The translations under genes and the position numbers were made by a program. From Thermotoga sp. (lineage in GTDB: Bacteria; Thermotogota; Thermotogae; B3-G13): 14,498 nucleotides of DNA. Location of the stretch: the NCBI GenBank assembly GCA_003641555.1, contig QNAT01000005.1:1-14498 (forward strand). The letters are read 5' to 3'. Below are positions 1 to 14,498 of this stretch, piece after piece. The notes under the pieces are model-generated. The model searched no databases, had not been told where the DNA came from, and saw only the letters and a list, made by a program, of their open reading frames with translations. Positions within the stretch are counted from its first letter, which is position 1; every line of letters starts with the position of its first letter.

Positions 1-1
1 A

Positions 2-100
2 GAATTCTACCAACAACCAGGAAATCGTGGGTATGTTGGTGAAATCACAGGAAAGCAAAAAGCGCTTTATGATGCTATGGAAATTCAAGTCCCGACCTAG
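2..100 (+). CDS. C-terminal end of an unidentified protein, cut by the left edge
   Basis: An open frame enters from the left edge and runs 32 codons to a TAG at 98-100, ending in ...GKQKALYDAMEIQVPT. Composition (charged, then an amphipathic helix and a short IxVP tail) looks like a real coding end rather than chance, and the gene lies on the same strand as recG, 143 bases upstream of it. The closing pattern (EQ/KQ, hydrophobic helix, G/E-I-x-V/L-P) weakly recalls the C-termini of some IS4/IS1634-type transposases, but this is a resemblance from memory with only 32 residues to judge. The function should be treated as unknown. The start lies outside the window. Confidence 0.45.
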   Translation, partial: EFYQQPGNRGYVGEITGKQKALYDAMEIQVPT

Positions 101-119
101 ATATAAAATCTTGGGACTT
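87..119 (+). other. Inverted repeat over the stop of the left-edge gene
   Basis: AAGTCCC at 87-93 is the exact reverse complement of GGGACTT at 113-119, with 19 bases between. A second, interleaved inverted repeat pairs ATATAAAA (101-108) with TTTTATAT (124-131). The two stems cannot form fully at once, and neither ends in a clean U-run, so a classical terminator is not clear. It may be a weak terminator for the upstream gene, or remnants of an insertion-sequence end if that gene is a transposase. Nothing else is evident in 101-170. Confidence 0.35.
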
Positions 120-173
120 TAGGTTTTATATGATGCAGCGATTCGATTTCAAGTGATTTTCTCGTGATGCAAT

Positions 174-211
174 TTGACACATTCTTTTCTGGAGTTAAAA
201 TCTGATATAAT
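174..211 (+). promoter_or_regulatory. recG promoter region (two overlapping candidates)
   Basis: One candidate has a perfect TTGACA at 174-179 and TAAAAT at 196-201 with a 16-base spacer. The other is an extended -10, TGA-TATAAT, at 203-211, which needs no good -35. Predicted starts fall near 208 and 218, giving a 5' leader of roughly 25-35 bases with an AAGGTGG ribosome site at 231-237. Both are sigma-70-like by sequence only. Confidence 0.55.
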
Positions 212-243
212 TTCTGTGACAAATACTGAAAAGGTGGAATATC

Positions 244-2595
244 GTGTTTTTAGATCTCTTCTTATCGGAGTCGGAAAAGTGTTTTCAAAAGGAAATGAAA
301 AATGAATATCAGGACAACAACCTGTATAAAAGTCTTTCTTATCTTACTTCTTCCCTTGATCATAGTGAATATGAAAATAACAAAGACCTTGAAATGAAGA
401 TCCATCTCTTCAGAAATCACTTTTCTATTTACTCTTCTCTTCCTATAGAGAGGCGAAAGAAAAGGATAAAGAATGGACTTATAATGCTTGAAAAGATCAG
501 AGATGAATATCTTGTAAAGCCCTTCATCGTTACAACTTTGAATAAATGTGAAAAGGATCCGATGTCTCCGGTTAGATTTGCCAGAGGGATTGGGCCGAGG
601 CGAGAAGTTGTGTTGAATAAGATAAAAGTGAAGACCATCTATGATCTCATTCATTACTTTCCCCGTGCTTACGAAGATAGAAGAGACCTCAGAATGGTAA
701 ATTCTTTAACGGAGGATCTCCCGCAGACTACTGTTTTGACGATAAAGAGAAAGGAAAAAAGGCATGTAAATGGTATGGATTTGATAAAGTTCACATTAAC
801 GGATGGATTTGCTTATGCCTTCTGTACCTGGTTCAATCAAACCTACATATACAGCAATTTTAACGAAGGTGATAAAGTAGTAATCTACGGTACACCCAGG
901 CGAAAATTTAACAAATGGGAATTCGTTTCTCCAGATATAGAATTGTTTGAACCAACATCCGAAATAAGACAGATATTACCTATATACCCCTTAACTTCTG
1001 GAATATCTCAAAAAGTGTTGAGGAATGCCCTGAAAAATGCTCTTGAGGACTATCTCGGTTGTTTAAAAGAATGTATACCTCAATCAATAAAGGAAAAGCG
1101 TGAACTTGTAGATATTCATACCTCCTTAAAGAATATACACTTTCCCGGTAACAACATTATATTGAAGGAAGCAAAGAGAAGACTGGCATATGAAGAACTC
1201 TTTCAATTCGAATTGGCAATAAACTATGCCAGAAGATATTTTACATCTCAATTTCAGGGGATAGAAAAACAATTCACAGGTAGGTTATCCAAAGAATTTA
1301 TAAAGACATTACCGTTTGAGTTGACCTCAGATCAATGCAAGGTCTATGAAGAGATAAAAAGGGATATGCAGGCTTCCAGGTCCATGAGAAGACTATTGCA
1401 AGGAGAGGTGGGAAGTGGAAAGACAGTGATCGCCGAGTTATCCATAATAGATAACTTCGAGGCAGGTTTTCAATCTGCAGTTATGAGCCCTACTTCTGTC
1501 CTCGCAGCACAACATTTCGAACGCTTGAAAGAAGAATTAAAGATTTGCGGTATAAAGGTAGAATTGCTATTGGGTAGTACATCTAAGGTAGAGAAGAAAA
1601 GGATAAAGGATGCATTGGCAAATGACAAAGCGGATGTTGTTATAGGAACACATGCCTTACTTCAAGAAGATGTTAATTTCGCAAAACTTGGTTTGGTAGT
1701 AATAGATGAACAGCATAGATTTGGTGTTAGGCAAAGAGCGCAATTGATCTCCAAAGGAAAGGCAGTCGATACACTTGTCATGACTGCAACACCTATCCCT
1801 CGAACACTTGCTTTAACATTCTACGGAGACTTCGATATATCCATCATCAGAGAGATGCCAAAGGGTAGACTCAAGGTATCCACATACATAGTAAACGAGA
1901 GCAGAATATACGAGGTCTATGACTTTCTGAAAGAAGAAATAAGTAAAGACAATCAAGGGTTCATAATATATCCCATAATAGAGGAATCGGATGTTCTGCA
2001 ATTGAAGGCTGCTACGACGATGTATGAAAAGCTGAGGGCTGGCGTGTTTTCCGATCTGAAGATCGCTCTGCTGCACGGTAGGATGTCTTATGAAGAAAAA
2101 AAAGCGGTAATGGATGCCTTTAGAAAAGGAGATATAAGGATACTCGTCAGTACGACTGTGATAGAAGTAGGTATAGACATACCGAATGCCACTTTTATAT
2201 TGATAGAACACGCTGAGAGATTTGGATTATCTCAACTACACCAACTTCGTGGTAGAGTGGGAAGAGGGGATAAAAAGGCATACTGTTTTCTCATACCTCA
2301 TGTTTATACCAATGAAGTTATGGCCAGATTGGAGAAATTTGCTTCGACAACGGATGGCTTTGAACTCAGCGAATACGATTTATCCATTCGAGGACCTGGA
2401 GAATTTCTCGGTACTCATCAGCATGGATTAACCGATTTCAAGGTTGCCGATATAGTAAATGATAGAAAGACACTATTAGAGGCTATAGAAGACAGCAAGG
2501 ATATACTCGACTCGGATCCCCTTCTTTTGAGACATCCTCTTTTGCTGGGGGTTGTAGAGAAATACAGAAAACGTGTTGAATTGATAAAAGTATGA
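244..2595 (+). CDS. recG: ATP-dependent DNA helicase RecG
   Basis: RecG is a double-strand DNA translocase that rewinds stalled replication forks and branch-migrates Holliday junctions in the cytoplasm. The 783-residue protein is longer than E. coli RecG (693). Residues 1-105 are an extra charged, helical N-terminal domain of the kind known in Thermotoga RecG, and the usual start (SPVRFARGIGP, then FPRAYEDR) only begins near 108. The OB-fold wedge covers about 150-260. The helicase core follows: Walker A GEVGSGKT (K393), the DEQH box (488-491), TATPIPRTLA, and the motif VI region with RGRVGRG. The C-terminal TRG-type region ends with the GPGEFLGTHQHG segment, so all core motifs are intact. 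The start is GTG at 244, set by AAGGTGG six bases upstream. It converges with the minus-strand permease gene across only 21 bases, with no visible terminator. Confidence 0.97.
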   Translation: MFLDLFLSESEKCFQKEMKNEYQDNNLYKSLSYLTSSLDHSEYENNKDLEMKIHLFRNHFSIYSSLPIERRKKRIKNGLIMLEKIRDEYLVKPFIVTTLNKCEKDPMSPVRFARGIGPRREVVLNKIKVKTIYDLIHYFPRAYEDRRDLRMVNSLTEDLPQTTVLTIKRKEKRHVNGMDLIKFTLTDGFAYAFCTWFNQTYIYSNFNEGDKVVIYGTPRRKFNKWEFVSPDIELFEPTSEIRQILPIYPLTSGISQKVLRNALKNALEDYLGCLKECIPQSIKEKRELVDIHTSLKNIHFPGNNIILKEAKRRLAYEELFQFELAINYARRYFTSQFQGIEKQFTGRLSKEFIKTLPFELTSDQCKVYEEIKRDMQASRSMRRLLQGEVGSGKTVIAELSIIDNFEAGFQSAVMSPTSVLAAQHFERLKEELKICGIKVELLLGSTSKVEKKRIKDALANDKADVVIGTHALLQEDVNFAKLGLVVIDEQHRFGVRQRAQLISKGKAVDTLVMTATPIPRTLALTFYGDFDISIIREMPKGRLKVSTYIVNESRIYEVYDFLKEEISKDNQGFIIYPIIEESDVLQLKAATTMYEKLRAGVFSDLKIALLHGRMSYEEKKAVMDAFRKGDIRILVSTTVIEVGIDIPNATFILIEHAERFGLSQLHQLRGRVGRGDKKAYCFLIPHVYTNEVMARLEKFASTTDGFELSEYDLSIRGPGEFLGTHQHGLTDFKVADIVNDRKTLLEAIEDSKDILDSDPLLLRHPLLLGVVEKYRKRVELIKV

Positions 2596-2616
2596 TAAAA
2601 ATGTAAAACCGCTATG

Positions 2617-3129
2617 TCAACTTTCCAATTTGTTTTTAGAAGAACCTTTCAATACCTTTTCCATTAGATAGCCTTCTATCACTGCATAACCTATGGTCAA
2701 AATGACGATGATCGATATAAATGGCCAGCCCAAAAAACCTGCAGCATACGGGATCCATGGAGTCTTTATGGCAAAAGCTCCTATCATGGCTCCGATAACT
2801 GCAAGTCTCGCTCCTTTCTTCAGAAGAGTGTTATACAACGGAAAGAGGATCCAGAGCGGACCAACTATTACTGTACCGAATAGGGCACCCAATAACACAC
2901 CCTTTACACCTGTCTTTCTTCCCATGAACCGTTGGACCGTCTTTGGAGATAAAAATGCAGATAAAAACGAAGAGAACAGCACAACGCATAGGAACACTGG
3001 AAGCATCTTTACAAACATGACTACTCCCTCTTTCAGAGCACAAGAAGTCTTCGATGGTAAGATGAAGAAAAGTGTGATATAAAGTATAGCCACTACACAC
3101 TCGAACCAATATCTCTTCAAGTATTTCAT
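2617..3129 (-). CDS. Half-size membrane permease, subunit 2 (DUF318/ArsP-like fold)
   Basis: This 170-residue integral membrane protein has hydrophobic segments at about 10-26, 38-60, 77-100, 108-130 and 136-155. It is a paralogue of the preceding gene product. Residues 70-107 of the two align without a gap and share 18 of 38 residues (GR..G, AL.GT, GP, PL, LLKKGA). Full-length permeases of the COG0701/DUF318 group are about 300 residues with two related halves, so this looks like one half of a two-subunit permease. The CSC-type cysteine motif usually placed before the PL..LL..GA segment in that group is absent here (FPLYNTLLKKGA). It is the last gene of the cassette, and its ATG overlaps the stop of subunit 1 (ATGA). 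The substrate is unknown. The assignment to the superfamily is from memory of the motif pattern. Confidence 0.75.
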   Translation of the reverse strand: MKYLKRYWFECVVAILYITLFFILPSKTSCALKEGVVMFVKMLPVFLCVVLFSSFLSAFLSPKTVQRFMGRKTGVKGVLLGALFGTVIVGPLWILFPLYNTLLKKGARLAVIGAMIGAFAIKTPWIPYAAGFLGWPFISIIVILTIGYAVIEGYLMEKVLKGSSKNKLES

Positions 3130-3626
3130 GTTGGCATCCCCCCCAACAACAGTCCTGTGAGTATGCCGATCACGATGGCTCCTATGAAGGCAAGGCCATT
3201 TCTTGCAAAGGTAAACCGCTTACCGAAAATAGAGATCTCATATGGGATGCTCACGAAACCTACCATCACCCAACTGTTCAAAAAAACTGCCGTTGCCGCG
3301 ATCGTAGCTCCCTTTTTCAGCAGAAATGCTCCCAACGGATAGGCAGAAGAGACCGGTCCAGCAACGATCGTCCCTGCAAGAGCAGAAGTCAATATGGATA
3401 GTAAACCTTTTCCTCTTCCAACGATAGATACCACAAAACTCCTCGGTACAAATACATCGAACAATCCGATGAGTAAAAAGATAGAGATGAGAAAGGGGAG
3501 CTGTTGTAAAAATCGCGAGATTCCCTTTTTAACTGCCTTTGTAGCACCAGCACTGCTCTTCTTAAAGGCATATATATAACATAGGACAACTATGATGCCG
3601 TAGATAACAGCTCCCAAGATATTCAT
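3126..3626 (-). CDS. Half-size membrane permease, subunit 1 (DUF318/ArsP-like fold)
   Basis: This 166-residue integral membrane protein has hydrophobic segments at about 2-20, 42-60, 74-97, 106-128 and 143-163. The core around 70-107 (GRGKG, SALAGT, GP, YPLGAFLLKKGA) matches the downstream partner position for position. This suggests an internal duplication kept as two genes, or a full-length permease split into halves that work as a heterodimer. The pre-PL cysteine motif of ArsP/COG0701 permeases is replaced by SSAYPLG. The start ATG overlaps the stop of the NifX-like gene (ATGA), with GGAG-type sites just upstream, so translation is probably coupled. A run of seven G's lies seven bases before its stop. 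The transported substrate cannot be told from sequence; a metal-, oxyanion- or cofactor-linked role is inferred only from the neighbours. Confidence 0.75.
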   Translation of the reverse strand: MNILGAVIYGIIVVLCYIYAFKKSSAGATKAVKKGISRFLQQLPFLISIFLLIGLFDVFVPRSFVVSIVGRGKGLLSILTSALAGTIVAGPVSSAYPLGAFLLKKGATIAATAVFLNSWVMVGFVSIPYEISIFGKRFTFARNGLAFIGAIVIGILTGLLLGGMPT

Positions 3627-4111
3627 TTCTCCAATTTCTCCTCGATTTTCGTCAGGCGGGACTTCAGGTCTGCGAGTTGCCTGCGAAGGTCTACGTTTTC
3701 TTTCTTCAACCGTTCGACCTCATCGCTTTCACCAGTTTCTCTTACCGCAACTTCTCTTGATCCTGCCAGTCTGGATTCTTCGGCTGAAATTCTCCTGTGC
3801 AAGAATTCCTCGAGTACATCTCTCACCCTTCCATATGCTCCAGTTACAGCCCTTATTCCATAATCTTCGAAATATTGCTGTGCTCTTGGCCCCATACCAC
3901 CTGTTATGATCGTATCAACACCCTGTTCTCTCATAAAGGCAGGCAGTTCTCCTGGATTATGTTCATCCACGAGCGGATTAGGCATGGATTTCACATCCTT
4001 TACTCTGTTTCCTTCCACTTCAACGATGATGTAGTACGGACAGTGTCCGAAATGATAACTCAAGATACTCTCCAAACCCTCTCGTTGATCCGCGGTAAAA
4101 CAGATTTTCAT
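3623..4111 (-). CDS. NifX/NifB-type (Fe-Mo cofactor binding fold) protein with coiled-coil tail
   Basis: The 162-residue product has the dinitrogenase iron-molybdenum cofactor domain over residues 1-110: it opens MKICFTA, has SYHFGHCPYYIIVEV (H23 C24), then GVDTIITGGMGPRAQ and the GYG-like turn GAYGRV. Members of this family bind Fe-S or Mo-Fe-S clusters, and many lie outside nitrogen fixation. A linker (111-130) is followed by a charged heptad-like tail at 131-162 (VERLKKENVDLRRQLADLK and on), a predicted coiled coil likely used for self-association or partner docking. A longer frame opens at 4153, but the start at 4111 is chosen because a strong AAGGAGGTGA sits directly upstream and the family's MKI opening falls there. 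That leaves a 19-base gap to the ferredoxin gene instead of an overlap. No nif structural genes are nearby, so nitrogen fixation is not implied. Confidence 0.85.
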   Translation of the reverse strand: MKICFTADQREGLESILSYHFGHCPYYIIVEVEGNRVKDVKSMPNPLVDEHNPGELPAFMREQGVDTIITGGMGPRAQQYFEDYGIRAVTGAYGRVRDVLEEFLHRRISAEESRLAGSREVAVRETGESDEVERLKKENVDLRRQLADLKSRLTKIEEKLEK

Positions 4112-4116
4112 AATTC

Positions 4117-4126
4117 TCACCTCCTT
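4117..4126 (-). promoter_or_regulatory. Strong ribosome binding site that sets the NifX-like start
   Basis: On the minus strand AAGGAGGTGA lies just before the ATG at 4111-4109, with a spacer of about five bases. It is close to the full anti-16S complement and overrules the in-frame ATG at 4153, which would lie inside the ferredoxin gene. Confidence 0.85.
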
Positions 4127-4130
4127 AATA

Positions 4131-4769
4131 TCAAGATATCTTCTTTTGTTCAACGATCACGATGCCATTTTCTCCCAGGAATCTATCTATCTCATCTGAG
4201 CAGTGTGAAACATCCTCGAACTTCTGTGAAACGAGTTCGAATTTAGCGACGGAAGGGGCCTTTTCATCATAGCAAACCTTAAGAGATGGGGTATTCACAG
4301 AAAAGTTTACCACATCACAATCACATTGCTCAGTGATATCCATCAGTTTCTTAGGGACATCCTTTTCTAATATATGTCCAGATACAGTGAATTCTACTCT
4401 ATGGCTCGATTGAGAAATAACCCTTTCTGCCTCTGCCCTTGCCTTATCGAGTGCGACTTTCATACCCTTCTTCTTGCTTTCTTTTTGAACGTACCTGAGG
4501 ACAGCATGTTCTTTTTCGATCTTGTGAATCATATCCTTCGGCGGAAAGCTTATCGCCCCGACAGGGCACACGGTCTCACATGTCGTACACCCAACAAGAC
4601 AGTTATATGGGTTTACGACTTTCGACTTGTTTCCTACCATCTCATATACATTCCTGCCGCAGGTTACAAAGCATAAACTACACCCAATACATTTGGTTTC
4701 ATCCACGGTTGGAAACCAGGGGATCTCCTTTCTTGGGATACCATGCCATGTTTTACTTATTTCACTCAT
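4131..4769 (-). CDS. Two-[4Fe-4S] ferredoxin-like protein with extra C-terminal domain
   Basis: The 212-residue cytoplasmic protein carries two cluster motifs: C27-x2-C30-x2-C33-x3-C37 and C57-x3-C61-x2-C64-x3-C68-P, typical of electron-transfer ferredoxin domains. A charged helical stretch (about 80-120) leads into a C-terminal domain (about 122-212) that alternates strands and helices and holds four further cysteines (C149, C151, C166, C190). I do not recognise this domain; by pattern it could be a small ferredoxin-fold or ACT/NIL-like unit. The start ATG overlaps the padR stop (ATGA), with AAAGGAGGT upstream. Its position between the regulator and the NifX-like protein suggests that it passes electrons to, or builds a cluster for, that protein or the permease. 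This role is inference. Confidence 0.85.
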   Translation of the reverse strand: MSEISKTWHGIPRKEIPWFPTVDETKCIGCSLCFVTCGRNVYEMVGNKSKVVNPYNCLVGCTTCETVCPVGAISFPPKDMIHKIEKEHAVLRYVQKESKKKGMKVALDKARAEAERVISQSSHRVEFTVSGHILEKDVPKKLMDITEQCDCDVVNFSVNTPSLKVCYDEKAPSVAKFELVSQKFEDVSHCSDEIDRFLGENGIVIVEQKKIS

Positions 4770-5125
4770 TTCAAGACCTCCTTTATTTTATTTATCAAGT
4801 TATTCATTACTCTCAGATTCTTTTCCGCATTATTTACCCAATTCTTCAGATATTCGCGTCCACTATTTGTTATGGAATAGATCCTCCTCGGCGGTCCAGA
4901 TCCTTCTATTTCCCATTTAGAGGATATCAATCCTCTTACTTCCATATCTCGAAGCAACCTGTATGCAACACCATAAGAGACGAATGCAGGATCTATACCC
5001 AGATCTCGTAATTCATCTACAAGCGAATATCCATGTGCAGGCTTCTTCAACAACAGATACAGAAGCGCAGCTACCAGGGTATTTCCCGTTCTAAAACCAA
5101 ATCTCGCACACTTCATCTTCTTCAT
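4766..5125 (-). CDS. PadR-family transcriptional regulator
   Basis: This 119-residue protein has a winged-helix fold: TGNTLVAALLYLLLKKPAHGYSLVDEL (helices 1-2), then the recognition helix region VSYGVAYRLLRDMEVRGLI, and a wing with GPPRRIYSIT NSGREYL. The helical tail (WVNNAEKNLRVMNNLINKI) probably dimerises. PadR proteins repress nearby genes, often their own operon, and respond to small molecules. It is the first gene of the cassette, and its stop overlaps the ferredoxin start. A frame opens at 5143, but ATG at 5125 is preferred: the promoter's TATAAT ends at 5133, so RNA would begin at about 5125-5127 and the message would be almost leaderless. The ATG at 5116 is an alternative. The inverted repeat at 5156-5176 is a plausible self-regulation site. 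Confidence 0.9.
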   Translation of the reverse strand: MKKMKCARFGFRTGNTLVAALLYLLLKKPAHGYSLVDELRDLGIDPAFVSYGVAYRLLRDMEVRGLISSKWEIEGSGPPRRIYSITNSGREYLKNWVNNAEKNLRVMNNLINKIKEVLK

Positions 5126-5132
5126 ATTAAGT

Positions 5133-5161
5133 ATTATATACACATATATTCATTTTGTCAA
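5133..5161 (-). promoter_or_regulatory. Consensus sigma-70-type promoter of the padR cassette
   Basis: Reading the minus strand, a perfect TTGACA (5161-5156) is followed by a 17-base spacer and a perfect TATAAT (5138-5133). The predicted start is at 5125-5127, at or next to the ATG of padR. It is the strongest promoter match I found in the window, which fits a gene set that needs a repressor to keep it off. Confidence 0.85.
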
Positions 5162-5176
5162 TAGGTAAAATTGACA
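5156..5176. promoter_or_regulatory. Candidate PadR operator (perfect inverted repeat)
   Basis: TGTCAAT (5156-5162), seven bases, ATTGACA (5170-5176): both 7-bp arms are perfect. The left arm contains the -35 hexamer of the padR promoter, so a bound dimer would block RNA polymerase. Family-typical PadR sites are dyads of similar size. Which protein binds here is inferred from position only. Confidence 0.6.
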
Positions 5177-5187
5177 TATAACGAGAA

Positions 5188-5202
5188 GCATGCTCGACAT
5201 GC
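5188..5202. other. Small dyad in the divergent intergenic region
   Basis: GCATG, CTCGA loop, CATGC: a perfect 5-bp stem between the padR and addB promoters. It could be a second regulator site or a chance dyad. No T-run follows on either strand. Confidence 0.25.
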
Positions 5203-5256
5203 GGCTCTATGCCAAATGGATACACCTACAAAAAACACTGTGATACCTTTTCGTAG

Positions 5257-5262
5257 TATAAT
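5257..5262 (+). promoter_or_regulatory. addB -10 element; start at the ATG predicted
   Basis: A perfect TATAAT ends seven bases before the A of the ATG at 5269, so transcription would be expected to begin at the start codon itself. The region 17 bases upstream (about 5234-5239) has no good -35, so a weak or activated promoter is likely. There is no Shine-Dalgarno site before 5269, which agrees with a leaderless message. Confidence 0.55.
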
Positions 5263-5268
5263 TATTTT

Positions 5269-8200
5269 ATGGGGAAAATGCACATGATAGTGGGACCACC
5301 GCTATCCAATATGTTGGATTATGTATTAAAAATACTTTCGAAAATATCGAAAGATGGCTCTCCTTACTGTTACAGGTTCATAGGTGCATCGGGCGGAGTA
5401 ATAGATGATATTGCAAAAGAAGCAGTGAAAAGGTCAGGCTTTATCTTCAGAGATAATTTCAAGCCTATAGACCAGTTCGCAGTGGAATTAGTTTCGAGAT
5501 ACAGGCCTGACCTAACGTATATGGATGAAGCTTTCTCTTATGCTTATGTCGCCGATTTTTTGAGAGGTATCTCAGATGATTCCTATTTCGGAAAAAGTAT
5601 TGAAAATCCTTCTTTCATACATAATTTTTCCTCCTTCGCATCTGATGTGCTCGAAAATGATGTCGATTTGAAAGATATTGAAGGCGGGGATGAACGTCTT
5701 ACCATATTACTTGACATTGTTCGAAGATACGAAGAGCAAAAGGAAAAGGATGGTCTGTTCGAAACGGTAAATGCCTATAAACTCGTTGCAGGATTGGATA
5801 TCCCCGAAGGGAAGGAAGGTGATGTACTCTTTGTGTACGGCTTTTCTGATTTGAAACCTATTCACATGAAATATTTCTTTCCAAAACTCTTCACCATATA
5901 TAATGCGATCTATTTTGCATTAACCTACGATGAAAAACGAGAAGATCTGTTCAAAGGGAGTAAAGAGATCTCTCTATTTTTGTCTCATTATTCTCCAGAG
6001 ATAAAAGAATTCAAAACGATAAAAGATGAAGATATGCGTTCACACATAGCGATTTACGCATTTTCGAATGAAGAAAAAAAGCGAAAAGGGAATTTCATCG
6101 AGATAATGAAGTTCAAAGATATACTCGATGAATGTAAAGGTGTAGCCAGGATGGTGAAATCTCTCATACTGAAGGGAGAAGTTTCACCAAAGTCAATATC
6201 TGTGGTGATCAAAAGTCCCTCGACCTATGGTAGAGAACTCATCAAGAGATTCAAAGAATATGGGATACCATTTCATCTGAACGGTTTTATCGATATATCT
6301 GCCAGTAAGATCATAAGACTCATCGTGTTACCCTTTATGATCGCTATCTCAGGTTACAAAGCAGATATGCTGATGAGTTTGGTGGAAAATGGATACATTC
6401 ACATCGACGATGAATCCTCCTTGAGGGCATTTGAATCTATAATAACTCGTTTGAATCTGGATAAGGATAACCTGCCAATGAGTTTTGCATCCAGGAGGAA
6501 GAGATGGTTGTTGAGATTGAGTGAGTATATAGAAAACTTGGAAAATCTGAGAAGGCATTCGAAATATATAGATGAGGAAGTAGACCTTACAGAGATCAAA
6601 AGGGCGATCGAAGATACGAAGGCAGCAGAGGGAATAACACATAAGATATTCAAATATATCGAAGAAATAGGGATGGATAGTAATAGACGCAGAAATATAA
6701 AGGAATATTCTCATCTTTTCGAGAAAAGTGCTGAAAATTTACACGATCTGCTCAGTTCCCGCCTTGAATCGGATGAAAATAATATCGAGAAAAGTTCGTT
6801 AAAGGAGTTCTTCAATGCAATATGGGATCTGGAAAGGGCGCTTTACAAAATAGGAAGAACGGAGATGAATCCGGGAGACTACAGCCTATATCTCAAATCC
6901 ATATTGAATTACAAAACCTTCAAGGTTCAATCTGAGCCAAAAGCCGGAGTTGAGATCCTGGATGTACTTGATGCAAGATATACGAAATCAGATCACAGAT
7001 TTTTTGTGGGTTTCAATGAGTCAATATATCCATCGGTCAGGAAGAATCCCTTATATCAATTGAATTTCGATGATCGCGTGGGAATATATGGAAATGAACC
7101 ATCTCCCAGTATGATCAGTTTTGTGGAGAAGAGACTTAGAGATGATAAACTCGATTTCTTCCTCTCATTAATACAAACGCGAAAAAAAGTCTTCCTGAGT
7201 TATGCGGAAGCGGATCCCAGCGGAAAAAGGTTACTCCCATCGAATTATATTGTTGACCTCGATAGATGTGTCTCCCTTCAAAATGTAGAATCATCTAAAC
7301 TACTTTCCATTCCCGCTTCTCGCGCTGAGGCGAAGATGGTTCTCATGAGTACCCACGATTTAAAAGATCTGCCCTCTCATTATGTAGAAAAATTCGATAT
7401 AAAGGGAATCCTGGATACAATTAAAAGACTGCATGATATTGGTAATGGTAGATTGGCAAAAAAAGAGCATTTGGAGGTATTGAAACGAAGGATAGAGGAA
7501 GAAGAGGATAATACCTTCAGCTACTCCAGATTGAAAAGGTACAAAGAATGTCCTATGCGATACTTCATAGAATACGTCCTGATGATAAAAGAGCCACCCA
7601 GGTACGAATTCGGTCTCACCCCACTTGCGCTTGGTTCCATATATCACATCTGTCTAAAAGAAGTATTCGAATATGCAAAGAAAAAAAGTTATCTGCCATT
7701 TACCAGTGTATCAGATGATAAAGACAAGATGGAGGAAATAAGGAAATTCCTTACAAATAGTGTGGAGAAAGAGTTAAGGGTATTCCCCCACTTACCTAAG
7801 AGTTTCCTGAAGATAAAAAAGATAGATATAGTGGAAAAATTATGGAGATTCTTGACCAGGGTGGAATTCGAGCCTTCCAAAAAAGCTCGATATAATTTCA
7901 TCCCAACCCTTTTTGAATATCCTATAAATGCCCTACAGATAACAGAAGATACAGAAACATTTAAAAATACTATCAAGATAAGTGGAAGGATAGATAGGAT
8001 GGATATTGGAATAGATAAGAACGGTGAAGAGGTCGCTAAGATAATAGACTACAAGAGGAATAGTTCTTCTGGAGATTGGGAACAACTATTTCTTTACAGT
8101 AAAATTGCGAAGAAAGCCACACTTCTGAAGGATAAAAAACTGGTAGAAGCAGTGTTTTATGGGATAGAGAAAGGAAGTAAAAGTGGTAGAGGGATAGAAG

Positions 8201-8418
8201 TAAATGAAGAATATGACGGAGATCTCTCATTCAAAAACAGCCGTGCTAAATTGCCCTTTGAGACTTACAGTGCCTTTCTATTTTACCTTGACAAAATGGT
8301 CAGTGAGATCAAGTCTGGCAATTTTAGAGAAAAAGCAGATCTATGGACCTGTAAAAACTGCCCATTCTCAATGGCTTGCATGAAAGGAGAGCGTTTCGAA
8401 ATTGGATTTCACGAATGA
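5269..8418 (+). CDS. addB: AddB-like subunit of AddAB helicase-nuclease (Fe-S nuclease)
   Basis: This 1049-residue protein is the AddB-type partner of the gene that follows. The C-terminal RecB-type PD-(D/E)XK nuclease is intact: H793, D909 in GRIDRMD, and D927/K929 in IIDYKR. The Fe-S staple seen in AddB nucleases is also complete, with C761 (KECPMRYF) plus C1028-x2-C1031-x5-C1037 (CKNCPFSMAC). The N-terminus keeps the fold start (MIVGPPLSNM) but has lost the lysine of the AddB-type GxxGSGKT loop, so ATP binding there is unlikely. The middle part has VGFNESIYPS, matching the inactive helicase-like core of AddB. The pair resects double-strand breaks for recombination. The start at 5269 fits a leaderless mRNA; ATG at 5284 with GGGGA upstream is an alternative. 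It overlaps addA by 17 bases. The symbol rests on architecture, not on an alignment. Confidence 0.85.
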   Translation: MGKMHMIVGPPLSNMLDYVLKILSKISKDGSPYCYRFIGASGGVIDDIAKEAVKRSGFIFRDNFKPIDQFAVELVSRYRPDLTYMDEAFSYAYVADFLRGISDDSYFGKSIENPSFIHNFSSFASDVLENDVDLKDIEGGDERLTILLDIVRRYEEQKEKDGLFETVNAYKLVAGLDIPEGKEGDVLFVYGFSDLKPIHMKYFFPKLFTIYNAIYFALTYDEKREDLFKGSKEISLFLSHYSPEIKEFKTIKDEDMRSHIAIYAFSNEEKKRKGNFIEIMKFKDILDECKGVARMVKSLILKGEVSPKSISVVIKSPSTYGRELIKRFKEYGIPFHLNGFIDISASKIIRLIVLPFMIAISGYKADMLMSLVENGYIHIDDESSLRAFESIITRLNLDKDNLPMSFASRRKRWLLRLSEYIENLENLRRHSKYIDEEVDLTEIKRAIEDTKAAEGITHKIFKYIEEIGMDSNRRRNIKEYSHLFEKSAENLHDLLSSRLESDENNIEKSSLKEFFNAIWDLERALYKIGRTEMNPGDYSLYLKSILNYKTFKVQSEPKAGVEILDVLDARYTKSDHRFFVGFNESIYPSVRKNPLYQLNFDDRVGIYGNEPSPSMISFVEKRLRDDKLDFFLSLIQTRKKVFLSYAEADPSGKRLLPSNYIVDLDRCVSLQNVESSKLLSIPASRAEAKMVLMSTHDLKDLPSHYVEKFDIKGILDTIKRLHDIGNGRLAKKEHLEVLKRRIEEEEDNTFSYSRLKRYKECPMRYFIEYVLMIKEPPRYEFGLTPLALGSIYHICLKEVFEYAKKKSYLPFTSVSDDKDKMEEIRKFLTNSVEKELRVFPHLPKSFLKIKKIDIVEKLWRFLTRVEFEPSKKARYNFIPTLFEYPINALQITEDTETFKNTIKISGRIDRMDIGIDKNGEEVAKIIDYKRNSSSGDWEQLFLYSKIAKKATLLKDKKLVEAVFYGIEKGSKSGRGIEVNEEYDGDLSFKNSRAKLPFETYSAFLFYLDKMVSEIKSGNFREKADLWTCKNCPFSMACMKGERFEIGFHE

Positions 8419-11176
8419 ACAGTTAAAAGCGATAAAAATAGAAGAAGGTCTGGTAACTGCAAGTGCGGGGAGTGGTAAGACTCGAATACTGGTAGAAAAA
8501 TACCTTGAGGAGTTGAAAAATGGCACAAATGTGGAAAATCTTCTTGCCTTAACCTTCACAGATAAAGCCGCTATGGAAATGAAAGACAGAATATCAAAGC
8601 GAATAGACGACTGGCTCGAAAGCACAGGAGATATGAGATGGTGGAAATTGAAGGATCACATTCCATTTGCAAAGATCTCGACCATACATTCTTTTTGCTC
8701 GGATGTGATACGTGAAAATGCCTTTCTCCTGGGGATAGATAGCGAATTCACGGTAGTGTCAGAAGGGGAAAAGAAAGATATCATAGATACCCTGATAAAT
8801 GATTCCATTAGAAGCTCTCCGGATAAGTATGAGAAGTGCATAGTTCAATTTGGGGTGAAGAAGGTGAAAGAGCTGCTCGAAAAAATAATGGAAGAACGTT
8901 ACTATTTGGATAAGATAGATACGAAGGATATATCGAGTATGAATTATTTAGAAGACCCCACTAACAACTTGAAAGTCATTGAACTCATGGAAGAATTTGT
9001 AGAACAGGCGAAGGAGATAAGGAAAAAATACAAGGAGCACATCTTCAAGGAATCTCGCTTCGATTTTCTGGATCTGCTATTGATAGTTAGGGAACTGTTC
9101 GAGGAGCATCATGAAGTAAGAGAGAGGTACAGGAGGAGGTACAAATGCATATTCGTGGATGAGTTTCAGGATACAAACGAATTGCAAAAGGAGATCATAG
9201 AGGCTGTTCACAAACCGGGTGTGAATAAGATCTTTTACGTAGGAGATGAAAAGCAGTCGATATACAGATTCAGGGGTGCAGACGTATCTGTCTTCATAAA
9301 TACAAAAAAGAGTTTCAACACAAAGAATAAATCGGTATTAGTGATGTCTGATAACTTCCGCTCTCATCCTCAGATAGTCGGTTTCATAAACAATATGTTT
9401 TCTAACATTATGAAAGGAGAGGGCAACGAAGAATTTTCCCCAAAATATGAACCGATGAAGGCAAGGGTATCCCCTAAGAGAAAATTTGGTGGAGTTTGGT
9501 TTGTAAAGGTAGAAGATAGTAATGACGAGTTGGGTAAGATAGCAAGATTTATCCTCCATGTTATTAAAAGATATGAGAATGAATTGAGAGAAAGGAAAAT
9601 GATTTTCAGGAATTTCGTGATATTACTCAGGAAATTGACCAATGTTTCTACCATAGAAAAGGCTCTGGATAAATATCATATACCCTACTACACTGTTAAA
9701 GGTAGAGGTTTTTACGAAAAAATGGAGGTAAAATCGCTCATAAGCTTCTTGAAATTACTGCAGGACCCGGGAGATAATATATCCCTCTTATCCATCTTAC
9801 GTTCTCCCATGATACTCGCAGATGAAGATATGCTCTTTATGATCGATGAGCAGAGGAGAGCAAAAAATGATACTTCATATCTGGAGATATTGAAAGGGAT
9901 AGACGATGAACGGATAAAGACATTCTTAACACTTTACGAGAGACTTCATAGTTTAAAAGGGATGCTGTCCCCATCCGAGGTCTTGAGCAAAGTAATAGAA
10001 GAATTTGACCTACTCGCCATATTATCTGTGTTTCGCAGCAGTGACAAGATGATAGCCAATGTGGAAAAACTACTTCATATGATCGAATTACTCGAATATC
10101 AAGGTTTCAATTATCGTGATATTGTGGAATACCTCACGACGTATGCGAGTCCGAAGGAATCTGAAGCCATGACTGAGGTAGAACAGGCGAATGTCGTCAG
10201 GATAATGAGTATTCATCAAGCGAAAGGTTTGGAGTTCCCCATAGTGATATTGCCGCAGTTAAATGCCTCAGGAGGAAATCAGGGGGACAAAATCATATTC
10301 GAGAGAGGAATTCCCATAATATCCGGACTGTTAAAAGAGAATAAAGCAGCCTCTGTTATCAAAGAAAGTATAAAAAGGGAAAAGATGAAGAATTTGGAGG
10401 AAGAGAAAAGACTTCTCTATGTTGCGATGACAAGGGCCCAGGATCTGCTCGCCTTGTTTTTACCTGTGGAGAAGAAAAACAGGAAGCAAGGTGTTTGGAT
10501 GAAGATCTTATCAGAGGAAAATGGTGTTTTTGAGGATTGGAAAGATTCTTTTATAGAAATCCCGGATGATATTCAACCTTTTGAAGCAAAGGCAGGTTTT
10601 ACATCTCCCCGAGAAAGATTGGACATATCCCTTGCAGAACCAATAGAAAAGGGGTACGATCAGCCGATTGTATCCGTTACAGAGTTGGCGAGGCAGGAAA
10701 TAAAAGAAGAGGTTGATGAATCGAAAGTGAAGGAATTATTCAATGCATACAAAGGAAAATTATTCCATCAGGTACTCGAAATGCTCGACAATGAGAAAAA
10801 AATATGCGACTTGAAGAAAGAAGTGAAGATGGATAGGAGATTTACTGAAAGAGAAAGGAAGGAACTGATAAGGATATTGGAAAACATTAAGGATAATCCC
10901 ATCGTGAAGATGATAGAAAATGCCGATAGGGTCGAAAGTGAAATGTCACTTGAAGCAGAGATGGACGGAAAGATATTCTATGCAAGAGTGGATAAATATT
11001 TCGAATATAAAGGAAAGAACATAGTGGTGGACTTTAAAACCAATAAAGGCAACAAGGCGTACGAAGACGAGCAATTGCGTAACTATGCCAGGATCCTTGA
11101 AAAGGTATTAGGTAAAAAAATGAACGAAGGTTATGTACTCTATCTGGTCAAAAACGATTTCAGACGGGTCCTTTGA
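8402..11176 (+). CDS. addA: AddA-like UvrD-family helicase with RecB-type nuclease
   Basis: The 924-residue motor and nuclease subunit is compact next to the roughly 1200 residues usual for AddA. All superfamily 1A helicase signatures are present: Q-motif FTNEQLKAI, Walker A ASAGSGKT (K26), VDEFQD (D253 E254), GDEKQSIYRFRGAD, the HQAKGLEFP motif (H605) and the arginine-finger motif VAMTRAQDLL (R678). The C-terminal nuclease keeps H789, D864 (ARVDKYF), and D877/K879 (VVDFKTN), then Q and Y of the QLRNYA helix, so it should cut one strand while AddB cuts the other. No Fe-S cysteines are seen in this nuclease. The start is TTG at 8402 inside addB, chosen because it directly precedes FTNEQ and no later Met lies before Walker A; AAAGGAG at 8383-8389 is slightly far (12 bases). 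Translational coupling to addB is likely. Confidence 0.92.
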   Translation: MDFTNEQLKAIKIEEGLVTASAGSGKTRILVEKYLEELKNGTNVENLLALTFTDKAAMEMKDRISKRIDDWLESTGDMRWWKLKDHIPFAKISTIHSFCSDVIRENAFLLGIDSEFTVVSEGEKKDIIDTLINDSIRSSPDKYEKCIVQFGVKKVKELLEKIMEERYYLDKIDTKDISSMNYLEDPTNNLKVIELMEEFVEQAKEIRKKYKEHIFKESRFDFLDLLLIVRELFEEHHEVRERYRRRYKCIFVDEFQDTNELQKEIIEAVHKPGVNKIFYVGDEKQSIYRFRGADVSVFINTKKSFNTKNKSVLVMSDNFRSHPQIVGFINNMFSNIMKGEGNEEFSPKYEPMKARVSPKRKFGGVWFVKVEDSNDELGKIARFILHVIKRYENELRERKMIFRNFVILLRKLTNVSTIEKALDKYHIPYYTVKGRGFYEKMEVKSLISFLKLLQDPGDNISLLSILRSPMILADEDMLFMIDEQRRAKNDTSYLEILKGIDDERIKTFLTLYERLHSLKGMLSPSEVLSKVIEEFDLLAILSVFRSSDKMIANVEKLLHMIELLEYQGFNYRDIVEYLTTYASPKESEAMTEVEQANVVRIMSIHQAKGLEFPIVILPQLNASGGNQGDKIIFERGIPIISGLLKENKAASVIKESIKREKMKNLEEEKRLLYVAMTRAQDLLALFLPVEKKNRKQGVWMKILSEENGVFEDWKDSFIEIPDDIQPFEAKAGFTSPRERLDISLAEPIEKGYDQPIVSVTELARQEIKEEVDESKVKELFNAYKGKLFHQVLEMLDNEKKICDLKKEVKMDRRFTERERKELIRILENIKDNPIVKMIENADRVESEMSLEAEMDGKIFYARVDKYFEYKGKNIVVDFKTNKGNKAYEDEQLRNYARILEKVLGKKMNEGYVLYLVKNDFRRVL

Positions 11177-11178
11177 GT

Positions 11179-11206
11179 GTTTGGCAGACATAATTCTATG
11201 TCAAAC
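11179..11206 (+). other. Bulged stem-loop between addA and the aldo/keto reductase gene
   Basis: GTTT (11179-11182) and GACATA (11187-11192) pair with TATGTC (11197-11202) and AAAC (11203-11206), leaving an ATTC tetraloop and a four-base GGCA bulge on the 5' side. A run of six T's at 11215-11220 follows eight bases later. It may be a weak or attenuating terminator after addA. I see no convincing promoter in the 78-base gap. Confidence 0.4.
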
Positions 11207-11239
11207 GGTCTTAATTTTTTCTTTATGTTCAGAAATCGT

Positions 11240-11247
11240 AAGGAGGG
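11240..11247 (+). promoter_or_regulatory. Ribosome binding site that sets the reductase start
   Basis: AAGGAGGG lies seven bases before the ATG at 11255. It selects this codon over the in-frame GTG at 11177, whose 26-residue extension would be read through the stem-loop and shows no family resemblance. Confidence 0.85.
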
Positions 11248-11254
11248 ATCAAGG

Positions 11255-12403
11255 ATGAATTGTAGAAAGTTTGGCAAACATGATTTTGAGATCTCTATCC
11301 TCGGTTTTGGATGCATGAGATTTCCTGTTATAAATGATGATGAATCTAAAATCAACGAAAAAGAAACTATCAAAATGCTTCATTACGCCATAGACAATGG
11401 TGTAAACTACCTTGATACTGCTTATCCATATCATGGAGGTAACAGTGAGGTTATAGTTGGCAAAGCACTACAGGGTGGCTATAGGGAAAAGGTTAGACTT
11501 GCAACAAAGCTTCCGGTATGGCTTGTAAAAACTTATGATGATTTCAATATATTTTTGAAAGAACAGCTCGAAAAACTGCATACAGAACATGTTGATTGCT
11601 ACCTTCTTCATGCACTCAACAAATACTCGTGGCGGAGGATGAAGGATCTGGGAGCTCTTGATTTTCTCACCAGAGCAATTAAGGATGGGAAGATAAAATA
11701 CGCAGGATTTTCATTTCACGATGATTTCAAGACATTCAAAGAGATAATTGATTCATATGACTGGGATTTTTGCCAGATCCAATTCAATTACCTTGATGAA
11801 AACTACCAGGCTGGTATTTCTGGATTAAAATATGCGGCATCTAAGAATATAGCCGTCATTGCCATGGAACCTATAAGAGGTGGAAAGCTTGCTAAGAACC
11901 TTCCGAAAGAGGTTAAAGCCATTTTCGGTAAATCAAAGATCAAAAGAAGTCCTGCCGAATGGGCTTTAAGATGGGTATGGAATCATCCAGAAATTACACT
12001 TCTTCTAAGTGGAATGAGCTCCTTGGATCAGGTTGTTGAAAATGTGAAAGTGGCAAACGATGCCTATCCCATGCCACTAAGTGAAAAAGAATTGGATATC
12101 ATAAATGAGGTAAAAGAAATATACAAGAAGAAGATAAAAGTGAATTGTACTTCATGTGGCTATTGTATACCGTGTCCTAATAACGTAAACATCCCGAAGA
12201 TCTTTAATCTCTATAACACCGCATTTATGCTTGATATGTTGGAAGAATCCTCGAAAAATTACAGGGAATTCATTGAGCAAGGAATAGATGCCTCAAAGTG
12301 TGTTGAATGTGGGAATTGTGAAAGCATGTGTCCACAACACTTGCACATAATGGATTCTTTAAAGGAAGTACATAAGGTTTTCACAACATATCATTCGAGA
12401 TGA
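11255..12403 (+). CDS. Aldo/keto reductase with C-terminal two-cluster ferredoxin domain
   Basis: The 382-residue cytoplasmic oxidoreductase belongs to the group of aldo/keto reductases fused to a ferredoxin (COG1453 type). The TIM barrel (1-290) has the catalytic tetrad: D54 and Y59 in DTAYPYHGG, K85 in ATKLP, H119 in YLLHAL. The C-terminal part carries two cysteine motifs: CTSCGYCIPCP (C-x2-C-x2-C-x2-C-P) and CVECGNCESMCP (C-x2-C-x2-C-x3-C-P), expected to hold two [4Fe-4S] clusters. This suggests that electrons may come from ferredoxin or flavin partners as well as NAD(P)H. The substrate is unknown. It is 78 bases downstream of addA and may be read from the same transcript, though no functional link to DNA repair is evident. 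Ile codons look somewhat less ATA-biased than in the helicase genes, a faint hint of a different origin. Confidence 0.93.
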   Translation: MNCRKFGKHDFEISILGFGCMRFPVINDDESKINEKETIKMLHYAIDNGVNYLDTAYPYHGGNSEVIVGKALQGGYREKVRLATKLPVWLVKTYDDFNIFLKEQLEKLHTEHVDCYLLHALNKYSWRRMKDLGALDFLTRAIKDGKIKYAGFSFHDDFKTFKEIIDSYDWDFCQIQFNYLDENYQAGISGLKYAASKNIAVIAMEPIRGGKLAKNLPKEVKAIFGKSKIKRSPAEWALRWVWNHPEITLLLSGMSSLDQVVENVKVANDAYPMPLSEKELDIINEVKEIYKKKIKVNCTSCGYCIPCPNNVNIPKIFNLYNTAFMLDMLEESSKNYREFIEQGIDASKCVECGNCESMCPQHLHIMDSLKEVHKVFTTYHSR

Positions 12404-12410
12404 ATGATAT
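12388..12410 (+). other. Perfect 9-bp hairpin across the reductase stop codon
   Basis: ATATCATTC (12388-12396), loop GAGAT, GAATGATAT (12402-12410) is a perfect 9-bp stem whose loop and right arm include the TGA at 12401-12403. No T-run follows, so it is not a standard intrinsic terminator. It could stabilise the mRNA 3' end or help factor-dependent stopping. Confidence 0.5.
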
Positions 12411-12436
12411 CTCACTCATGTGTATAAGGTACAATA

Positions 12437-12472
12437 AATTGATCCACTCAAGGCCATTGAGAATTGATCCAC
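12437..12472. repeat. 11-bp direct repeat flanking a small hairpin
   Basis: AATTGATCCAC occurs at 12437-12447 and again at 12462-12472, a 25-base period. Between them CTCAA (12447-12451) pairs with TTGAG (12457-12461) around GGCCA. It lies in the 189-base gap between the convergent reductase and metH genes. Confidence 0.5.
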
Positions 12473-12592
12473 AAAAGACACGAAGTAAAAAAGATGTTGG
12501 ATGGTAGATGAGTAAATGGGTGAATGAGCAATGTTAAGTGATTCGTGATGATTAGTGCTAATTCGTGTCCCGTATAATCTATCATTTAACAT
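12473..12592. other. Non-coding repeat-rich stretch between convergent genes
   Basis: No gene is evident. ATTCGTG appears at 12541-12547 and 12561-12567, around the dyad ATTAG-TG-CTAAT (12551-12562). A wider inverted pair ATGTTAA (12531-12537) and TTAACAT (12586-12592) encloses this block and abuts the metH stop. Short purine-rich near-repeats (GATG, GTAGATGAG, GTGAATGAG) fill 12490-12530. It could act as a folded 3' end for metH or be decayed repeat DNA. Confidence 0.4.
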
Positions 12593-14498
12593 CTATCGGG
12601 TCTCTATGGCTAAACGGTTACTTATCTTATTACACAGCTCCAGAGCTTCTGATGCATTCCTTGCATATCCATCGCAGCCAAATTTCTCGGACAGAGTGCG
12701 ACTCATCGATGCCCCTCCTGCTATAACGATTGCCTTAATCCCTTGTTTTTTGATCACACTTGAGACTTCCTCCACTTTTCCTACTGTAGTCGTCATCATC
12801 GCAGATAATCCAACTATATCGGGTTTATGACTTTTTATGGCACTTATGATCTCTTCCGTGGGAACATCTTTCCCAATATCGATTACTTCATACCCACCGC
12901 TCCTCAATACTGTAGCCACTATTTTCTTACCTATATCGTGAATATCTCCCTCGACGGTTGCAAGTAAAACCTTTCCTTTATATGCCCTCTTTACAGAAGT
13001 TAATGAATTTAAGTAATCGAAAACGGGCTTCGAAGTATCTGAAGCCAGCAACAGATGAGGAAGATAGATAACTCCTTTCGAGTATAGATCTCCGATCTTC
13101 TCCATCGCTTTGCCCAGGATTTCCTGGCTGATTGTTAAAGGATCAAATTCTTTCAATTTTTTATCGATGAGTTTCTTGAGTTCATCAGTATTCCCTTTTA
13201 ATAGAATTTCCACTAAAGGATCATCATATTTTTGTATTGCGTTTCGATCTTCCAAATCTTCTCCCTTTAAGTAGAGAGCACCTTTTAGACTGTTCATAAC
13301 AAAAGTATCTTTTGAATTCATTATCGCTGATCTGAGGCCAACGTTAATTGCTTGAGATAAGAACGCCCCATTGATCACCGACCTGTCAGGCATCCCAAAA
13401 CTCAAATTCGATAGTCCTAACGTTGTTTTTATCCCTCGATCAGAGAGATGTTTTATCGTTTCTAAAGTGACGTTAGGATCATTATTTGCTCCTAACGGTA
13501 GAACCAGAGGATCTGCGAATACTCTATCTCTTGAAATGCCATTATTTTCCAAAATCTCTATTCCTTCAAGGATTTTCTCCACCCTTCCTTGCGATGTTTT
13601 TGGGATTTCCTTACCCATTGCAAGCAGTACGAGCACACCCCCATATCTTTTAAGGAGATCAATTTTTCTCTCCAAACTCTCAGGAATAACTCTTGCAGAG
13701 TTGATCAAGGCTCTACCAGGGTACTCTCTTAACGCGACTTCAAGATACCTGCTCATTTGAATATCAAGAGATAAAGGCAAACTCGATATCCTATCCAGTT
13801 CTCTTATTACCTGCCTAAAATACGATTCATCTAACAATTTTTCTATACCCAGGTTGATATCTATTATTGTGGATCCTTCTTTTTCCTGTTCCCTGGCTAA
13901 ATTCAATATCGGTGTATAATCTTTATCAACTATTCTCTTTTGAAACACTTTCTTCGAAGCGGGATTGATCCTTTCTCCCATTATTACAAAGGATTTTATC
14001 GGTTTATATACTGTTCTCGAAGCAAAAGCCTGTTCAAATTCCGCCTTTCTTTTCATTGGTCTTCTGTTACTTATCATCTTTCTCAAAACTTTGATATGTT
14101 CAGGAGAAGTCCCACAGCAACCACCTATTATATTCACACCCTGATCGATGTAGTCTTCTGCATAAACGGCAAAACTTTCAGGGTCCATCTTATAGTACAA
14201 TCTATTACCATCGTAAATAGGTTTTCCTGCATTAGGTTCAACGGAAATGGGTTTTGTCGATGATTCGCAGAGTTCCTTAAGGGGTTTTAGGATTTTATCT
14301 GGACCGAGAGTACAGTTCATACCTATTATATCTACATCTAAATCCTCGAAAACGGTAGCAAATATCTTAACGGATGTCCCCGTAACAGATATGGAATTCT
14401 CTTCAAAAGTCATGTGAGCGATCAGGGGAAGTTCAGATGTTATAGACCTTATACCCAGGACTGCTGCCTTCAATTCCTTTATATCAGACATAGTTTCA
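12593..14498 (-). CDS. metH: Cobalamin-dependent methionine synthase, 3' part (no activation domain)
   Basis: MetH moves a methyl group from 5-methyltetrahydrofolate through cobalamin to homocysteine. The frame is open at the right edge (…ETMSDIKELK), so the Met at 14491 is internal and the first ~130-150 residues of the homocysteine domain are missing. Counting from that Met, the zinc cysteines are present (C60 in GMNCTLGP, C125/C126 in GGCCGTSPEH). The pterin-binding barrel starts near 168 (IMGERINPASKK), a helical cap spans about 415-495, and the Rossmann B12 domain has DIHDIG (H518, the cobalt ligand) followed by SAMMTTTV and AGGASMS. The gene stops after the B12 domain. The reactivation (AdoMet-binding) domain of E. 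coli MetH is absent, as in many Thermotogota and clostridial enzymes, so a separate reactivation partner is expected elsewhere. It converges with the reductase gene. Confidence 0.95.
   Translation of the reverse strand, partial: ETMSDIKELKAAVLGIRSITSELPLIAHMTFEENSISVTGTSVKIFATVFEDLDVDIIGMNCTLGPDKILKPLKELCESSTKPISVEPNAGKPIYDGNRLYYKMDPESFAVYAEDYIDQGVNIIGGCCGTSPEHIKVLRKMISNRRPMKRKAEFEQAFASRTVYKPIKSFVIMGERINPASKKVFQKRIVDKDYTPILNLAREQEKEGSTIIDINLGIEKLLDESYFRQVIRELDRISSLPLSLDIQMSRYLEVALREYPGRALINSARVIPESLERKIDLLKRYGGVLVLLAMGKEIPKTSQGRVEKILEGIEILENNGISRDRVFADPLVLPLGANNDPNVTLETIKHLSDRGIKTTLGLSNLSFGMPDRSVINGAFLSQAINVGLRSAIMNSKDTFVMNSLKGALYLKGEDLEDRNAIQKYDDPLVEILLKGNTDELKKLIDKKLKEFDPLTISQEILGKAMEKIGDLYSKGVIYLPHLLLASDTSKPVFDYLNSLTSVKRAYKGKVLLATVEGDIHDIGKKIVATVLRSGGYEVIDIGKDVPTEEIISAIKSHKPDIVGLSAMMTTTVGKVEEVSSVIKKQGIKAIVIAGGASMSRTLSEKFGCDGYARNASEALELCNKISNRLAIETR

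Follow-up and report, generated by a model that had tools for sequence, protein, structure and literature searches.

The permease family ArsP_1 (PF03773) comprises the methylarsenite efflux permease ArsP, together with the SaoE and SO_0444 equivalogs, and ArsP exports trivalent organoarsenicals rather than arsenite, according to PMC6205960. A five-gene cassette encoding two small members of this family is located on the minus strand (2617-5161) of the window, i.e. the whole stretch of 14,498 nucleotides analysed (Thermotoga sp., assembly GCA_003641555.1, contig QNAT01000005.1, positions 1 to 14,498). Behind a perfect TTGACA-17-TATAAT promoter it encodes, in this order, a PadR repressor, a ferredoxin, a NifX-like protein, permease 1 and permease 2 (Table 1). 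Judging from sequence and genomic context, the best reading is that the locus exports a toxic metalloid, in all likelihood an arsenical, and is autoregulated by PadR; we assign this reading a probability of roughly 0.55. The promoter, the operon packing, the conserved core and the recurrence of ferredoxin family members and distant half-permease pairs beside arsenic or metal resistance genes are direct observations.

The cassette shares with ArsP the same half-unit but differs from it in having two half-size genes, in lacking the CSC motif and in forming an operon of its own with PadR, NifX and ferredoxin genes. Classical ars operons (arsR, acr3, arsC, arsP, arsE-type thioredoxin) can harbor both the ferredoxin family (locus L036) and distant half-permease pairs (loci L129-L134), whereas the cassette has PadR as regulator, includes a NifX-like gene and lacks ACR3 and ArsC. 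In Fusibacter sp. 3D3 the ars cluster arsD-arsR-pno-acr3-arsC also contains a 4Fe-4S ferredoxin gene, pno, and a second ferredoxin occurs near arsC-1, although the excerpted text of that report mentions no PadR, NifX or split permease (PMC9751042). Ferredoxins in ars loci are therefore not wholly new, whether or not these belong to the family characterized by the WHGIPR motif.

Two further groups of proteins are related to single components. The mercury-methylation ferredoxin HgcB is the best NCBIfam match of the cassette ferredoxin (NF040864, 35.9 bits, under the cut-off of 99) and also appears among its structure matches, but the latter protein has an extra N-terminal tail and an ACT-like C-terminal domain; no hgcA was found among the main open reading frames (ORFs) of the window, the rest of the genome not having been searched. 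The NifX-like protein has the Nitro_FeMo-Co domain in common with NifX, NafY, MrpORP and PF02001-NifX proteins, from which it differs by an HFGHC motif, a coiled-coil-like tail, a PadR or ArsR partner and the lack of nif context in the window. No operon combining PadR, ferredoxin, NifX and a split permease was found in the open-access PMC literature, judged by titles and abstract starts, in agreement with a preliminary description of this DNA, made from the sequence alone, which knew of no pathway with exactly this gene set.

Table 1. Features of the cassette (positions in the window)
Feature	Positions	Strand	Evidence
Promoter TTGACA-17-TATAAT	5133..5161	-	12/12 consensus match; sigma-70 type
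Half-site ATATGTGTA of a candidate PadR operator, within the promoter spacer and adjoining the -10	5139..5147	-	By-eye comparison; binding putative
padR, PadR-family repressor, 119 aa from ATG 5125	4766..5125	-	PF03551 60.4 bits, cut-off 27
Ferredoxin of 212 aa with a WHGIPR..IPW tail and two [4Fe-4S] sites, then a long helix and a C-terminal domain of ACT-like type	4131..4769	-	Fer4_21 36.2 bits; alignment; predicted fold
NifX-like protein, Nitro_FeMo-Co domain, HFGHCPYY motif, C-terminal coiled-coil-like tail	3623..4111	-	PF02579 75.6 bits; alignment of 11
Half-permease 1, 166 aa, ArsP_1 half-unit, GP instead of CSC, topology bias N-out	3126..3626	-	PF03773 47.6 bits, cut-off 32.3
Half-permease 2, 170 aa, ArsP_1 half-unit, Cys48 in transmembrane helix 2, VGPLW and IKTPW, bias N-in	2617..3129	-	PF03773 38.5 bits, cut-off 32.3

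Organization and conservation of the cassette

The consensus promoter and the five packed, co-oriented genes of the preliminary description were recovered as proposed, with ATGA overlaps between padR and the ferredoxin gene (4766-4769), NifX and permease 1 (3623-3626) and the two permeases (3126-3129). All five proteins exceed curated Pfam cut-offs, so that the PadR, two-cluster ferredoxin, NifX-type and DUF318-type assignments hold as well. The operon ends 21 nucleotides from the stop codon of a convergent recG, the RecG domains of which were matched. Promoter-like sites are no commoner in the whole region than in shuffled sequences (7 versus 6.1 +- 2.4), and the case for the promoter thus rests on its perfect match and its conservation: in a by-eye reading of ten PadR cassettes (the window, L015-L019, L021, L095, L098 and L099), TTGACA occurs at the equivalent position in eight.

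Because the listed padR start (GTG 5143) overlaps the promoter, ATG 5125 was taken instead as the likely start. This codon is only 7 nucleotides past the -10, and the mRNA may consequently be leaderless. Inverted repeats of the ATGT/ACAT type are a form of operator associated with autorepression by PadR proteins. ATGT directly precedes the -10 in nine of the ten cassettes, and an ATGT-N9-ACAT inverted repeat is present in three (L017, L019, L098), with an N8 form in L025 (both by eye). Also, the single N-terminal cysteine of PadR (CARFG) is kept in 9/10 cassette proteins.

A ferredoxin profile was run against 84,980 species genomes, yielding 152 confirmed relatives, 80 of which were kept. The exact five-gene order occurs in the window, in L015, from a genome of the same genus (Thermotogae), and in L016 and L019, from Caldisericota, the phylum to which all of L016-L021 are assigned. 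L017 and L018 carry an SBF/ACR3-like gene inserted between ferredoxin and NifX; one metagenome-assembled genome (MAG) has the cassette split by contig ends (L021 and L081), and L020 consists of the ferredoxin alone, the same genome having an ACR3-like-PadR-NifX-permease-permease array elsewhere (L095). The recurrence of the order in Caldisericota MAGs and Thermotogota indicates that the cassette is not strain-specific, so that the first refuting condition of the preliminary description, a gene order confined to this strain, does not apply. The flanks differ even within the genus, as no L015 gene beyond the cassette, including the one upstream, matches the window (L015 is only 4.4 kb long), and the cassette occupies different sites in the two genomes. 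In L017 (9452-11248), as in L018, L019 and L095, permease 2 is followed by a gene, absent from the window, for an AAT-family protein with a lipoprotein-like start (assignment to PF03417 tested for L017).

Half-permease matches occur in 43/103 Thermotogota genomes, eight of them being close permease 2 orthologues (>270 bits). PadR and NifX precede all eight, fused in one case, and the ferredoxin accompanies only those of the window and L015, suggesting a four-gene core, PadR-NifX-permease-permease, to which the ferredoxin is an addition. The five-gene unit first described is hence real as a recurring order, but is made up of a core plus an add-on.

The half-permeases

The split permease of the preliminary description corresponds to two half-size genes that encode homologous half-units. 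Both align to the first half of ArsP_1 (formerly DUF318; 11-130 and 12-143 of 294), which led to rejection of an N-half plus C-half split, and they are about 27% identical to each other. This half-unit is present twice in each of the six full-length ArsPs examined from ferredoxin loci, all of which have CSC in the first repeat. Cys48 of permease 2 is invariant in 11/11 orthologues, while no conserved cysteine was found among ten orthologues of permease 1. Opposite topologies are suggested by charge bias, which places the N-terminus outside in 10/10 permease 1 proteins and inside in 8/11 permease 2 proteins, although a simple hydropathy count gives 3-5 helices. For permease 2 a good structural model was obtained (pLDDT 87.9), in which helices are interrupted near residues 88-91 (VGP) and 119-122 (AIK). 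Permease 1 scores 34.4 bits with the SO_0444 Cu/Zn exporter model (cut-off 300) and 10.6 with SaoE (cut-off 325); permease 2 matches neither.

Distant half-permease pairs reside in six ars operons (L129-L134), five from one Thermotogota family and L132 from another. An ArsR (with CMC, CSC, CIC, CIC or CVC) is encoded directly upstream in five of the six and a CSC-type ArsP downstream in those five. An ArsE-type thioredoxin is also present in 5/6, and L132 has ACR3 (357.8 bits) and an ArsC-like protein.

The NifX-like protein and its regulator

The likely start of the NifX-like protein is ATG 4111, located behind AGGAGGTG and 19 nucleotides past the ferredoxin stop. The HFG[HR]C site and the coiled-coil-like tail are kept in 11 aligned proteins. 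In L098, PadR and NifX form one 308-residue protein with both domains over cut-off (relatives P0121 and P0122), and in L024/L105 ArsR and NifX form one of 298 residues; two half-permeases follow both kinds of fusion. Five further proteins are PF02001-NifX fusions. Since two lineages have fused NifX to different repressors, PadR and ArsR respectively, NifX probably works with the regulator and appears to be its partner.

The ferredoxin and its genomic neighborhood

The eight cysteines of the ferredoxin form two CxxCxxC-type [4Fe-4S] motifs, invariant in 25 sequences (the window protein and 24 relatives, 38-73% identical), which also share W8, H9, R13, P17, W18 and P20 in the N-terminal tail as well as positions in the C-terminal domain. 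The AlphaFold2 model is moderate overall (mean pLDDT 73.7, pTM 0.43) and mostly good over the C-terminal 90 residues (ten-residue means 77-91, the last two residues apart). Here the predicted order is strand-helix-strand-strand-helix-strand, as in the beta-alpha-beta-beta-alpha-beta fold of ACT domains. Structure matches comprise ACT domains (1zpv, TMt 0.67) and the NikR nickel domain (3qsi, TMt 0.71), all with E > 0.001, and the extra domain is accordingly described as ACT-like, as a model-based assignment.

Across many phyla the ferredoxin family adjoins ArsR, ACR3-like, ArsP, ChrA or CDF genes. Within 4 kb of 81 ferredoxin loci, ArsR is found in 25 (18 with CxC), NifX in 18, ACR3-like proteins in 15, ArsP-type permeases in 14, CDF and Trx_3 in 13 each, PadR and ChrA in 10 each, and ArsC and DGC in 7 each; in 58/81 loci one or more of seven families (ArsR, PadR, ACR3-like, ArsC, ChrA, CDF, ArsP) are represented. 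L036 is a plain arsenic operon composed of ACR3 (359.4 bits, cut-off 282.8), a metalloregulatory ArsR with CVC (71.9, cut-off 55), an ArsC-like protein (130 bits to the pI258 family, under its cut-off of 174) and the ferredoxin. L057 encodes ArsG (292.5 bits, cut-off 200), a relative of which occurs in L055. Likewise, an ACR3-like gene lies within cassettes L017 and L018 and adjoins those of L019 and L095.

Enrichment was assessed over the 129.4 Mb of the 44 genomes that carry L015-L060, where ferredoxin loci make up 0.31% of bases. These loci hold 10/64 ACR3-like matches (0.20 expected), 16/62 ChrA domain matches, belonging to 8 genes (0.19 expected), and 4/48 ArsP_1 matches (0.15 expected) after exclusion of 12 matches from cassettes L015-L019 and L024. 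These counts are of non-independent events, and a MatE control was too small for use.

In nine loci (L048, L050, L061, L065, L073, L076, L077, L078, L093), from e.g. Mycobacterium, Rubrivivax and Rhodobacterales, the ferredoxin lies near PFOR genes and/or genes which we take to be DHOD-like, possibly reflecting a second role. In L044 (493-1852 and downstream) a gene for a SufC-like ATPase comes directly after the ferredoxin, and genes of the DGC and OsmC clusters lie beyond it.

Proposed function and alternative explanations

In the proposed operon, PadR would shut the promoter by binding a site of the ATGT/ACAT type that overlies the -10, and a metalloid would release this repression. The NifX-like protein would bind the metalloid, or a metalloid/Fe-S species, through its HFGHC site and report to PadR, and it may also deliver cargo. 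The half-permeases would pair, probably in antiparallel fashion, each standing for one repeat of a full-length ArsP, and would export the metalloid as a single transporter, while the ferredoxin could provide low-potential electrons, or an Fe-S/ACT site, by which the substrate is converted to the exported form or held. Given the absence of CSC from the half-permeases, this substrate may differ from that of ArsP.

Several observations weigh against this interpretation. No arsR, acr3 or arsC occurs among the ten main ORFs of the window, and at 80-112 bits the five ACR3-like genes found with Caldisericota cassettes remain far under the ACR3 cut-off of 282.8, which only three of the ten ACR3-like genes in ferredoxin loci exceed (L036, L040, L047). 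The permeases show AGPVSS and VGPLWI at the position of CSC, and the pairs of L129-L134 are only distantly related to those of the cassette (60-66 bits to the permease-2 profile). In 16 of 30 Thermotogota half-permease loci, both the cassette and an ars set are absent from the roughly 1.5 kb of flanking sequence, the neighbors there including a CDF-labelled ORF (L114, L115), weak ArsR-like proteins (L115, L116) and PadR (L124). NifX and a regulator are directly upstream in only 4 of 11 half-permease loci studied (L095, L098, L099, L105), L098 and L099 being counted also among the eight close orthologues. The ferredoxin is missing from the cassette in 6/8 Thermotogota orthologues, and 23/81 ferredoxin loci have none of the seven families counted above, five of them having PFOR and/or DHOD-like neighbors instead. 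Furthermore, the ChrA, CDF and RND neighbors imply that the ferredoxin is not arsenic-specific.

This last point bears on a broader heavy-metal or oxyanion system, in which the permeases would export a soft metal ion (Cu/Zn, like SO_0444) or a chromate-like oxyanion and the ferredoxin would serve it, as well as ChrA, CDF and RND systems, as a generic reductant. ChrA (10/81 loci), CDF (13/81) and RND-type clusters (6 loci, one member tested) beside the ferredoxin fit such a role, as does the match of half-permease 1 to the SO_0444 family, far under its cut-off. The CxC-containing ArsR, the ACR3 and ArsC neighbors and the half-permease pairs in ars operons favor arsenic, however, and we regard a general system as rather unlikely. 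Handling of an Fe-S or Fe-Mo-type cofactor, with NifX carrying a cluster, the ferredoxin repairing or reducing it and the permeases moving iron, molybdenum or sulfur species, would account for the NifX domain and for the SufC-like ATPases beside the ferredoxin in L044 (183.7 bits, cut-off 212.8) and beside an ACR3-like::ArsR gene in the same genome as the window. Yet the window has no nif-type gene among its ten main ORFs (nif and moa genes were not looked for in other cassettes), the regulators and neighbors are of metal-resistance type, and PMC6205960 describes ArsP as an efflux protein, making this explanation more doubtful still. The preliminary proposal of a regulated redox or metal/cofactor system with a membrane step thus fits the findings as to regulation, redox or metal chemistry and the membrane step, but metalloid (arsenical-type) efflux agrees better with the context than cofactor handling does.

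A loose association of five functionally unrelated genes, kept together by thermophile genome compactness, could be suspected from the rarity of the ferredoxin in Thermotogota cassettes and from the different cassette sites within one genus. Conservation of the order over two phyla in differing flanks, the translational coupling implied by ATGA overlaps, the single conserved promoter and the two kinds of regulator::NifX fusion make it very improbable.

If the metalloid efflux interpretation is correct, it would provide a testable role for a ferredoxin family of many phyla, for NifX-like proteins outside nitrogen fixation and for half-size DUF318 permeases. Also, the known arsenic resistance parts of anaerobes and thermophiles would gain both a redox protein and a sensor of the NifX type, and ArsP-type exporters would exist in a split, two-gene form. 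A wider generalization is offered only tentatively: the ferredoxin-ACT protein could be a general, unrecognised part of metalloid and metal resistance in many phyla, where its low-potential electrons would serve to convert toxic species ahead of their export. In the present lineage it would be joined to an antiparallel two-subunit ArsP and to a NifX-like sensor that binds the ligand on behalf of a PadR repressor (ArsR in other cases), the two proteins together making up a metalloid-sensing repressor.

Other genes of the window and the genome

Divergent from the cassette, overlapping genes for a PD-(D/E)XK nuclease and a UvrD-type helicase, AddB/AddA-like, occupy 5269-11176 of the window. They are followed by an aldo/keto reductase that carries a 4Fe-4S dicluster domain at its C-terminus (11177-12403) and by a MetH-like protein with homocysteine S-methyltransferase, pterin- and B12-binding domains (12593-14491); its homocysteine domain is matched only from profile position 144, the N-terminal part being absent, possibly through truncation at the contig end. 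Elsewhere in the genome, contig C290 (L136, 234-2701) encodes an ArsR-like protein, then an ACR3-like::ArsR fusion of 424 residues, both parts of which were matched and whose C-terminal ArsR domain has CTC, and then an ATPase that resembles SufC by sequence.

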